A stretch of 46,178 nt of DNA, from contig JAHENZ010000062.1 of assembly GCA_018609755.1 (NCBI GenBank), positions 1-46,178 on the forward strand. Reading direction: 5' to 3'. The notes under the pieces are model-generated. The model worked only from the letters and a program-made list of their open reading frames with translations. It ran no database searches and had not been told where the DNA came from. This document shows, piece by piece, positions 37,348-43,095 of this stretch. The number at the start of each line of letters is the position of its first letter. The stretch's first letter is position 1. Origin of the DNA: Salinivenus sp. (GTDB lineage Bacteria > Bacteroidota > Rhodothermia > Rhodothermales > Salinibacteraceae). The translations under genes were made by a program, and so were the position numbers.

Positions 37348-38067
37348 CTACCGAGGGCCGAACGTAAAGGTAAGAATTGTTCGGGTGGCCACGGGCGTTC
37401 CCTGTGATTCAGCAGGGCGGAAGAGCGATCGTTGGGCTGCGGTGAGGGCCGCCTGGTCCAGGCCATACCCGAGGTCTTGCACTGGGCGGGCCGACCCGTC
37501 CTCGTAAAGGCGCCATCGCTCCGTGATCGATGCACTTTGAACGGCCCCAGTCTCGCTGACCTGAACCTCCACCTTAATACGAGCGCGGACTTGTTCCTTC
37601 TGGGCATCCAGGGGGTAATCGGGCTGTACGTTTTTCAACAAGCGTGCTTCGGTGTCAGGTTGCCGCGCAGCGGTGACCTGTGACGTTCCGTCCTGTAGCT
37701 TTTCGTCATCGTCGGGGTCGTCAACCTGCAGTTCCCCTTCTCCGAAGGTGAGTTCTTCTTTGACCAGCACCTCGTTTGGCACCACCACAGGAGGAAGGGG
37801 CGCGGGAGGAGGCGGGGACTTCTCCTGTGCTTGACTCGTCGGCTGAATTTCGCGGATCTGGATGGGGGCGGATGGACGGTCTCGGAAGAGGGAGGGCGAA
37901 TCTGTCCCCGTTCCGGCCGGCCACCACCGGACCAGAGCGACGGCCATGCCAAGCACAAGCACCAGTGCCCCCATCACACGCTGGTAATATGTGACGTGTG
38001 AGAGTAACATGGAGGAGGATCGATGCTGAGTACGGTGCTCATTGGTCTTGAAAATCAGCGCTCGCAT
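37348..38067 (-). CDS. TonB-family energy-transducer-like protein
   Basis: 239 aa from ATG at 38067; another ATG at 38010 is possible and an upstream one at 38163 would add 32 residues. A single membrane helix (VMGALVLVLGMAVALVRWW) is followed by a proline-rich spacer (KSPPPPAPLPPVVVP), an acidic stretch and a TonB C-terminal domain (PDYPLDAQKEQVRARIKVEVQVSETGAVQSASI ... AALTAAQRSLFRPAESQG). Such proteins pass the proton-motive force to outer-membrane receptors; no ExbB/ExbD or receptor gene is near. Convergent with the small membrane protein gene. Confidence 0.85.
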   Translation of the reverse strand: MRALIFKTNEHRTQHRSSSMLLSHVTYYQRVMGALVLVLGMAVALVRWWPAGTGTDSPSLFRDRPSAPIQIREIQPTSQAQEKSPPPPAPLPPVVVPNEVLVKEELTFGEGELQVDDPDDDEKLQDGTSQVTAARQPDTEARLLKNVQPDYPLDAQKEQVRARIKVEVQVSETGAVQSASITERWRLYEDGSARPVQDLGYGLDQAALTAAQRSLFRPAESQGTPVATRTILTFTFGPR

Positions 38068-38173
38068 TCTGTTTCCAGATGCACCTTTGGAGGTTGGGGG
38101 GACTCTGCTGCAAAGACCTGAGGAACGCAAAAAGAAAAGATGGGAAAACGCCGGATCACTCATAGCCCCGATG

Positions 38174-38204
38174 TTGTGAAACCTTACGAACGTTTATACA
38201 TTGG
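38174..38204 (+). promoter_or_regulatory. Candidate carA promoter
   Basis: TTGTGA (38174-38179) and TATACA (38195-38200), spacing 15. TACATTGG (38197-38204) also resembles the Bacteroidota -7 element TAnnTTTG. A start near 38210 would give a leader of about 200 nt before carA. Confidence 0.4.
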
Positions 38205-38237
38205 CGAGCCGAAGAATCTCAGCAGGGTTCACCGATC

Positions 38238-38324
38238 ATGAAATCAAACTGCCCTGTGCGCTGGATGCGTGTGTCCCACTGGACTTATGAATCTCCGCTC
38301 GGATCTCCCCGGATTCCGAGCTAA
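38238..38324 (+). CDS. Candidate leader peptide of carA (28 aa)
   Basis: Short frame from ATG at 38238 to TAA at 38322-38324, containing two Trp, four Arg and five Pro/Cys-type residues, beginning MKSNCPVRWMRV. It ends 8 bp before the first arm of an intrinsic terminator, and its last codons form a separate hairpin (38297-38321). That position is the typical layout of a translated attenuator leader. No run of a single regulatory amino acid codon is present. No strong ribosome-binding site seen. Confidence 0.4.
   Translation: MKSNCPVRWMRVSHWTYESPLGSPRIPS
38297..38321 (+). promoter_or_regulatory. Leader hairpin upstream of the carA attenuator
   Basis: GCTCGGA (38297-38303) pairs perfectly with TCCGAGC (38315-38321). 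The loop carries CCCC (38307-38310), which could pair with GGGG (38352-38355) of the terminator, while CCGA (38316-38319) could pair with TCGG (38347-38350). This would be a weak alternative, mutually exclusive fold. Confidence 0.45.
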
Positions 38325-38332
38325 GCCTGTTC

Positions 38333-38365
38333 CTTCCCCTCCTGATTCGGTGGGGAAGTTTTTTT
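38333..38365 (+). terminator. Intrinsic terminator in the carA leader (attenuator)
   Basis: CTTCCCC (38333-38339) pairs with GGGGAAG (38352-38358), then seven Ts. It lies 53 bp before the carA start. The nearest upstream plus-strand gene ends about 1 kb earlier, so this terminator most likely controls read-through into carA. Confidence 0.88.
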
Positions 38366-38417
38366 GTAGGTTTCCCCGGTTGCTCCGTCCCTTTTGCGCT
38401 GAACCGATCCCCAATCT

Positions 38418-39587
38418 ATGACCGATCACACGAACGACACGTCCCCCCAAGCGTCTGATCCTGCCAAACTCGTCCTCGAGGACGGCACGTCGGTCCGTGG
38501 CACTGCCATTGGGGCGCGAGGGCTCACGGGGGGAGAGCTCTGCTTTAACACGAGCATGACGGGGTATCAGGAAATCATGACGGACCCGTCCTACTACGGG
38601 CAACTCATGATGATGACGTATCCTCACATCGGAAATTACGGCGCCTCTGACATTGACATGGAGGCCGAGGAACCGATGGTGGCTGGTTTCATCGTCCGAT
38701 CTTTCACCGAGCGCCACTCCAACCGGCAAGCCGATGAGACACTGGATGAATTCATGCGCGAGCACGGTCTCGTCGGTATTTCCGGAGTCGACACGCGGGC
38801 ACTCGTCCGCCACATTCGAGACAAGGGCGTGATGAATGCTGTCATCTCCAGCGACGAGCTCGACGACGATGTCCTCCTTGAACGGGCACGAGAGTGGCCC
38901 AGCATGGACGGCCTGGAGCTCGCGTCGAAGGTGACCACCGACTCGCCATACATTTACTGTGAGGGAACCGGGCCTCGCATTGCGGTCTACGACTTTGGGG
39001 TCAAACAGAACATCCTCCGTTCGTTTCGGGCACGCGGCGCCACCGTTCGGGTCGTGCCTGGGGAGACCCCCCTCGACGACGTCCTGTCGTGGGACCCCGA
39101 CGGCTTGTTCTTTTCAAATGGACCGGGCGATCCGCGGGCGATGGCGGATGCGATTGATCGCGTCGGACGTGCTCTGGAAACGGGACTCCCCATTTTTGGC
39201 ATCTGTCTCGGCCATCAGCTGATCTCCCTCGCTCAGGGGTTTGACGTCTACAAGATGTTCGTCGGGCACCGCGGCGCCAATCATCCGGTGAAGAACCTGG
39301 ACACCGAACGGGTCGAGGTGACCACGCAAAACCACGGATTTGCCGTCGACGAGAACTCGATTGACGACGGCAAGGCGCGGGTGACGCACGTAAACCTGAA
39401 CGACGACACGGTCGAAGGGCTCCGGTTCAAGACCTTCCCGGGCCTCTCGCTGCAGTATCACCCTGAAGCCTCTCCGGGACCGCACGACAGTCATTACCAC
39501 TTTGACGCCTTCATGGACATGGTGGCGAGTGAACGAAACGTGTCTGTTCCCGATCAGCCCGCCGAACCCGTTCGCGCTGTGAGATAG
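38418..39587 (+). CDS. carA: Carbamoyl-phosphate synthase small (glutaminase) subunit
   Basis: 389 aa, normal length. Hydrolyses glutamine and channels ammonia to CarB for carbamoyl phosphate (pyrimidines, arginine). The N-terminal CPSase domain (LVLEDGTSVRGTAIGARGLTGGELCFNTSMTGYQEIMTDPSY) is followed by a class I amidotransferase with nucleophile Cys263 (FGICLGHQLISLAQG), then His348 and Glu350 (QYHPEASPGP). Preceded by a leader with an intrinsic terminator. A TonB-domain lipoprotein gene separates it from carB; no terminator is seen between them. Confidence 0.97.
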   Translation: MTDHTNDTSPQASDPAKLVLEDGTSVRGTAIGARGLTGGELCFNTSMTGYQEIMTDPSYYGQLMMMTYPHIGNYGASDIDMEAEEPMVAGFIVRSFTERHSNRQADETLDEFMREHGLVGISGVDTRALVRHIRDKGVMNAVISSDELDDDVLLERAREWPSMDGLELASKVTTDSPYIYCEGTGPRIAVYDFGVKQNILRSFRARGATVRVVPGETPLDDVLSWDPDGLFFSNGPGDPRAMADAIDRVGRALETGLPIFGICLGHQLISLAQGFDVYKMFVGHRGANHPVKNLDTERVEVTTQNHGFAVDENSIDDGKARVTHVNLNDDTVEGLRFKTFPGLSLQYHPEASPGPHDSHYHFDAFMDMVASERNVSVPDQPAEPVRAVR

Positions 39588-39686
39588 CTCGGACGTGGTT
39601 CGGATGAGTGGACGATGGCTCTACCCACCACTTTCACTGTTGACCTGTCGGGTACACGCTACTTCAAAACTCAGTTTTTCCACACG

Positions 39687-40145
39687 ATGATGTCGTCTCT
39701 TGGGAAGAATGTACGCTTCTTTTGCCTGCTTTCTGTAGCGCTTGGCATCGTTCTGACGGGGTGTGGGTCGTCGGGGCCGATCGTTGGGGGCGACATCGAA
39801 CGACGGGTATATTTGCTGGAGGGACAGGACGTTGACGAACCGCCCGAGATTGATGGTGGATACGCTGAAGTGGAACGGCTGAAGCAGTATCCCGACGCTG
39901 CCGAAGAAGACGACGCCTACGGCGTGATCTGGCTGCAGTGCACCATTTCTGCCAGCGGCGTCGCTACGCGCATTCAGGTGGCCCAAGGGGGGCATCCTGC
40001 GCTCGAAACGGAAGCCTTGAATGTTATTCAGCAGCTCCAATTCCGACCGGCCACTCGAGGCGGAGCACCGGTCCAGTCCCAGATTCAAGTTCCCATTATC
40101 TTTCAGGGGCCGTACGCTCAACCAAAGGAGAACAGTTCATCCTGA
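39687..40145 (+). CDS. TonB-C-terminal-domain lipoprotein between carA and carB
   Basis: 152 aa from ATG at 39687 (an ATG at 39615 would add 24 residues). Lipoprotein signal FFCLLSVALGIVLTGCG with Cys26. The mature part has a VDEPPEIDGGYAEVERLKQYP entry, a characteristic TonB-type 'P..Y' start, and ends with the C-terminal fold (WLQCTISASGVATRIQVAQGGHPALETEALNVIQQLQFRPATRGGAPVQSQIQVPI). There is no membrane-spanning anchor or proline spacer, so it is probably not an energy transducer but a stand-alone TonB-domain lipoprotein. Unusual neighbour for carAB. Confidence 0.85.
   Translation: MMSSLGKNVRFFCLLSVALGIVLTGCGSSGPIVGGDIERRVYLLEGQDVDEPPEIDGGYAEVERLKQYPDAAEEDDAYGVIWLQCTISASGVATRIQVAQGGHPALETEALNVIQQLQFRPATRGGAPVQSQIQVPIIFQGPYAQPKENSSS

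Positions 40146-40266: not shown

Positions 40267-43095
<2,829 letters not shown>

Follow-up and report, generated by a model that had tools for sequence, protein, structure and literature searches.

In Escherichia coli and Salmonella, the pyrBI attenuator operates through pyrimidine-dependent slowing of RNA polymerase and ribosome-coupled read-through, and in the amino-acid leader-peptide attenuators of trp, his, and ilv a leader, a hairpin, and a terminator precede a biosynthetic gene. For carA itself, the carA motif of Polynucleobacter is described as an extended, imperfect hairpin of beta-proteobacteria that has 30 representatives and a proposed regulatory role (PMC8632094). The main text of a survey of attenuators makes no mention of Salinibacter or Bacteroidetes (PMC2965389), and our literature search, with subscription journals mostly outside its reach, found no published description of a carA attenuator in the class analyzed here. 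The carA product is a precursor common to pyrimidine and arginine synthesis (carbamoyl phosphate), and a carA leader controlled by attenuation provides a compact, testable case beyond the usual model bacteria.

The window, that is, the whole stretch of 46,178 nucleotides that was analyzed, belongs to genome G000 of genus group g1 (Salinibacteraceae, Rhodothermales). Its carA leader (38174-38417, plus strand, as are all features below unless noted) presents a promoter, a terminator, and carA in this order. The promoter-like pair TTGTGA ... TATACATTG (38174-38203) comprises a -33-like TTGTGA (38174-38179) and a -7-like TATACATTG (38195-38203), of the -33/-7 type of Bacteroidota, and transcription is predicted to start at about 38210. 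No sigma-70 site was listed here by a generic promoter scan of the window, whose consensus does not cover Bacteroidota-type promoters. Among 13 genomes of the same genus, 12 retain the promoter pair, in a GAAAC-N-TACWTTG-like form located 111-134 nt upstream of the terminator. Between promoter and terminator there is a 28-codon frame (38238-38324, with its ATG at 38238 and its TAA at 38322-38324) and a 7-bp hairpin, GCTCGGA/TCCGAGC (38297-38321), whose surrounding region (38290-38325) has a fold z of -3.5 that none of 200 shuffles equaled.

The intrinsic terminator (38333-38365) is formed by a 7-bp stem with a 5' arm CTTCCCC (38333-38339) and a 3' arm GGGGAAG (38352-38358), a 12-nt loop (38340-38351), and a run of seven T (38359-38365). 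The fold z of this stretch is -2.4, equaled by three of 200 shuffles. A generic terminator scan did not report it, because the 12-nt loop exceeds the limit of 8 used in that scan. Downstream of the T-run, 52 untranslated nucleotides (38366-38417, beginning with GTA) lead to the ATG of carA at 38418, and carA (38418-39587) encodes the carbamoyl-phosphate synthase small chain (Pfam PF00988 and PF00117). All these elements, from the promoter pair to carA, had been reported in a previous sequence-only reading of the locus and were found at the same positions.

To determine how far this arrangement extends, carA was sought in 100 related genomes, three of which (G025, G045, and G094) were left out owing to weak matches and no usable carA, giving 97 readable leaders of Rhodothermales. 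An intrinsic terminator was identified in 84 of them, from 15 families (80 by the stem finder, G041 and G083 by eye, and G085 and G072 by model and pattern), located 24-185 nt upstream of the carA match in the 76 leaders listed. No terminator was found in the other 13 leaders, which correspond to all six of family f14, five of f15 (G050, G071, G081, G087, and G090), and G019 and G023 of f1, two genomes with uncertain carA starts (carA is broken over two frames in G023 and contains a stop in G019). The consensus stem is (R)CCUUCCC...GGGRAGG(Y), followed by five to nine U, including U7 runs, with a variant CCUCCCC...GGGGAGG in part of the genus of the window. In a set of 39 representatives, most genera contributing a single one, two-sided compensatory changes are present at five of nine pairs and 93.5% of the cells are paired, values that were not reached, either of them, by any of 500 shuffles. 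Conservation is stronger in the 5' arm, where C4, T6, and T7 are invariant in 39/39 representatives, than in the 3' arm, and the partner of the two U positions varies between A and G (A-U versus G-U, 25:14 and 27:12). The loop measures 3-13 nt across the order, and this variation disfavors a reading of the palindrome as a DNA operator. Directly downstream of the T-run, a purine-T-purine triplet (GTA, GTG, ATG, or ATA) is present in 57 of 82 leaders, and also in f21 (L152 and L153). In G041 and G051 (leaders L102 and L103), two genomes of the same order, the best carA shares only 43% identity with the query and is nevertheless preceded by the same terminator; perhaps the carA gene was replaced there under an old leader.

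The pattern proved to be particular to carA. The strict pattern CTTCCC-N2-22-GGGRAG-N0-2-T7 was present at 13 distinct places in 13 of 41 whole genomes, all of them 45-109 nt upstream of carA, and a control pattern had no match in the same 41 whole genomes. Covariance model R1, searched in 100 genomes, had a match in 76 of them, which lay at carA in 73; in G036, G039, and G070 the sole match was elsewhere. Within the order, R1 matched 12 places away from carA, and the ten that were inspected by eye (all except G029:C6 and G032:C60) resemble gene-end terminators, which led us to reject a regulon of similar terminators. As a control, R1 was searched in 80 named carA loci, and it matched 8/11 loci of Rhodothermia or Balneolia and 0/69 of the others. 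The leader of G000 is matched at 38329-38370, with a score of 29.3 bits when the window alone is searched, and is missed with strict whole-genome filters.

The gene upstream of carA encodes a TonB_C-domain protein (37348-38163, minus strand; Pfam PF03544) and is divergent, which leaves the terminator without a co-directional upstream gene that it could serve. A simple gene caller was applied to 28 leaders for which a long upstream stretch was available, and the nearest neighbor was divergent in 22 of them; in the remaining six, including G000, where the caller missed the TonB gene, it was a short frame of low score, 241 nt or more from the terminator. The previous assertion that the terminator serves no other gene is thereby upheld. 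A second TonB_C-domain protein is encoded between carA and carB (39615-40142), so that two such proteins flank carA. Given a promoter, terminator, and carA that are conserved, an upstream gene that is divergent, and a sequence constraint particular to carA, our analysis agrees with the earlier proposal of an attenuator: the comparison of leaders shows class-wide selection on the promoter, on the terminator, and on the way in which they are ordered, and the carA leader is very probably a transcription attenuator, a regulatory switch that extends class-wide.

The sequence-only reading had also assigned the 28-codon frame to a leader peptide and had suggested a comparison with related leaders, and this part is only partly supported. 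The terminator is kept among relatives but the 28-codon start is not: the ATG at 38238 has no counterpart in the closest relative, G009, which shares the reading frame farther on. If a peptide is made in the window, an in-frame ATG at 38265, common to G009 and G002, would fit the relatives better than that at 38238; it opens a 19-codon ORF, MRVSHWTYESPLGSPRIPS (38265-38324), whose stop lies 8 nt before the terminator stem, and the 20-codon frame of G002, MRLPPLPISAEPLGRERPPR, ends at the same stop distance. Frames of equal length with a stop near the stem (3-28 nt before it) recur within several clades (20 codons in G003, G004, G007, and G010; 17 in f3; 16 in f4; 18 in f10; 19 in g33; and 23 in G080, G083, and G089), the chance of a conserved frame in a single clade being roughly 0.07 to 0.7 by column shuffles. 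Across the order, an ATG frame reaching the terminator occurs in 19.2 of 39 genera versus 18.1 in dinucleotide shuffles (genus-weighted), with no excess, and an order-wide leader ORF was rejected because its frequency is at shuffle level. Over 19 pairs, the codon-position bias (73:78:89) was not significant (p = 0.12), and the codon changes comprised 43 synonymous and 121 non-synonymous ones. In family f15, only ~25-40 nt separate the -7 box from the stem, too few to accommodate a leader ORF, yet the terminator is still kept in 8/13 of its genomes. A second ORF, for which the 3' arm of the terminator would act as a Shine-Dalgarno sequence, was also considered, given that the T-run is directly followed by an ATG in 17 of 82 leaders; it was rejected because the window has TTG followed immediately by TAG.

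Regarding structure upstream of the terminator, the 38297-38321 hairpin has counterparts with compensatory changes in G009, G002, and G008, as judged by eye and in part with RNAalifold. A general conserved second hairpin before the terminator was rejected, as it is real in the group of G000 but not order-wide (mean z of -0.27 +/- 0.16 at positions -60 to -16). Neither the test for a second hairpin nor that for pairing revealed a sensor element shared by every leader. The base composition of the leader is rich in C and poor in G in 33 of 39 genera (10 of 39 for an upstream control), which fits an open, translated stretch or a CTP/UTP-demanding one and proves neither. The T fraction of the last 12 nt before the stem is 0.28-0.29 versus ~0.21 before them, a small enrichment.

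Outside the order, R1 gives no carA match in the sister families f16, f17, and f20, and its matches there are located elsewhere (16/16 genomes examined). The carA leaders of these families nevertheless carry a terminator of their own, in 16/16 leaders of one set and 16/16 of another that adds f21 (32/32 in total, with the terminator of G161 cut by the contig end). Their stem is mostly a different conserved one, AAUCCGAC...GUCGGAUU; the form AATCCGRC...GYCGGATT followed by ~T8 is present in 28/32 sister leaders (the f20 variant being counted and G228, G229, G197, and the cut G161 excluded). It is unusual for a terminator in front of a single gene to be preserved almost to the letter throughout an order, and for the neighboring families to have another stem that is just as conserved. 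In other classes of the phylum, sampled as one genome per family with the same finder, a terminator was present in 6/24 genomes, counted regardless of the upstream gene. In the leaders of f16, presumably the Balneolaceae (the name is a guess), the frame that starts at an invariant ATG, 30-33 nt upstream of the stem, continues through the terminator in 15/15 leaders (4/2000 column shuffles); in a wider leader set, two f16 leaders (L126 and L143) have no such ATG. This sister-family frame is the best support for a leader peptide, which within Rhodothermales is only suggested. Six leaders of the Balneolaceae type (L129, L130, L131, L136, L150, and L154) also have a recurrent hairpin upstream of the terminator, with the invariant ATG in its 3' foot, and CAAAGCT...AGCTTTG farther upstream. 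The arms of this hairpin co-vary by eye (CTACG/CGTAG, GCACG/CGTGC, CGCGC/GCGCG, and ACCC/GGGT), in an alignment too poor for a pair count, and it is possible that it corresponds to a structured sensor.

The allosteric domain of CarB elsewhere senses UMP and ornithine. In the window, carB (40267-43095) encodes a 942 amino acid protein that matches positions 1-918 of a 1058-position CarB model and shows no C-terminal allosteric (MGS) domain in Pfam, as had been noted earlier. Since CarB here is devoid of this UMP/ornithine-sensing domain, control at the level of the gene may carry the load, and it is possible that transcriptional control compensates for the absent domain. A short CarB is also present in genomes with no terminator, such as G049. 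The open CarB frame has at most 1004 amino acids in 22/24 genomes examined (the exceptions being G057, with 1138, and G296, with 1064), and a short CarB devoid of the allosteric domain seems to be the rule in this class.

As for how such a switch might work, we give roughly even chances to ribosome-coupled attenuation of the pyrBI kind at carA. Polymerase would start near 38210 and, by default, stop at the U7 tract (38359-38365), short of carA, a course suggested by the sequence and backed by its conservation. A ribosome following close behind on a short leader frame would block folding of the hairpin and allow read-through, as in enterobacterial pyrBI; such a frame would end at the terminator or run through it, and in the window it would be the frame at 38265-38324, with its stop 8 nt before the stem. 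When pyrimidine nucleotides are scarce, polymerase would slow down and the ribosome would catch up, raising carA expression at low UTP or CTP. In E. coli, an intrinsic terminator is reported to be repressed when the ribosome reaches a stop codon less than ~27 nt upstream of it (PMC4824070), so the ribosome would be the simplest source of read-through. Neither an antiterminator fold nor special codons would be required, and leaders with no antiterminator pairing, together with a G003-type frame that contains no Arg codon, fit a mechanism that needs neither. A pure ribosome mechanism leaves the conservation of the stem sequence unexplained, above all that of the 5' arm. This strict conservation is the best argument for, and leaves room for, a trans factor that reads the hairpin. 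The hairpin could then be a sensor site: a trans-acting protein or small RNA would recognize either the single-stranded 5' arm CCUUCCC or the hairpin once folded and would thereby control read-through, the frames being incidental. Such a factor would account for a nearly invariant 5' arm facing a 3' arm that drifts between A-U and G-U, for a strict pattern found only at carA among 41 genomes, for f15 leaders too short for a frame, for leader frames at chance level across the order, and for the lack of an antiterminator; but the loop varies in length, the stem is wholly different in the sister families, and PyrR, the most obvious candidate factor, does not co-occur with the terminator, and we consider this explanation possible though rather unlikely. 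It is likewise unlikely, in our estimation, that the terminator hairpin itself is recognized, with CCUUCCC read by a trans factor or by ribosomal RNA, so that sensing and termination would share the same 35 nucleotides and each order would have its version of the stem, in a sequence-specific terminator family devoted to carA.

PyrR-type attenuation, in which PyrR with UMP would bind the leader and favor termination, has in its favor a PyrR-family protein over the cut-off in 95/100 genomes, that of the window included (G000 and most related genomes have two paralogues, in G000 at C1:6613-7152 and C207:1843-2322). The PyrR RNA element RF00515, however, was found in 0/100 genomes, with positive results in the Bacillus, Thermus, and Lactococcus controls, and the protein and the terminator are uncoupled: the terminator is present in all five genomes with no PyrR over the cut-off (G014, G021, G031, G037, and G048) and absent from the six f14 genomes that were read, which have PyrR. 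We therefore rejected PyrR regulation, which is scarcely credible here. More broadly, no Rfam 15 riboswitch, T-box, or leader family matched the window over its gathering score, the leaders of the relatives having been searched with RF00515 only. Attenuation by arginine, through stalls at control codons and an alternative antiterminator fold, is suggested by arginine being one end product and by frames that are Arg-rich near their end (RRFRGG in f3 and RPRRR in g33). It is contradicted by the Arg-free G003-type frame, by an Arg-coding frame of the terminator that is not kept in the sister family, and by the two terminator arms, neither of which pairs with the leader more than expected by chance (mean z of +0.11 each, 39 genera); an antiterminator was rejected on this last basis, and with it the alternative hairpin-terminator pairing envisaged in the earlier reading, and arginine attenuation seems very improbable to us. 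Finally, the terminator could be unregulated, either a partial stop of constant strength that determines how much CarA is made or the ordinary terminator of an upstream gene. The sensor search that came out empty agrees with this, and in f17, where a co-directional small gene ends ~100 nt upstream of the terminator, the terminator could serve that gene; but the neighbor is divergent in the window and in most relatives, and a plain stop would not be expected to show gene-specific sequence conservation in 15 families, which makes an unregulated terminator improbable.

Compared with known systems, the carA leader shares with the trp, his, and ilv attenuators the order of leader, hairpin, and terminator before a biosynthetic gene, and differs from them in that common control codons and antiterminator pairing were not found in the carA leaders. 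Like the PyrR-dependent pyr attenuators, it would represent transcription attenuation of a pyrimidine gene in genomes that mostly encode PyrR, but with no PyrR RNA element among the 100 genomes and with PyrR and terminator presence uncoupled. The Polynucleobacter carA motif is also a structured leader directly upstream of carA, and its description sets it apart from the short terminator with U7 found here in the class Rhodothermia (PMC8632094). The pyrBI attenuator resembles the carA leader in its promoter-proximal intrinsic terminator before an early pyrimidine gene, in its independence of an antiterminator, and in a frame that reaches the terminator, as in several clades of carA leaders. In contrast to pyrBI, the system described here precedes carA, its stem sequence is conserved across an order, its frame is not general, and its U-rich pause region is weak. 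The carA attenuator is new as a family, and of a known kind.
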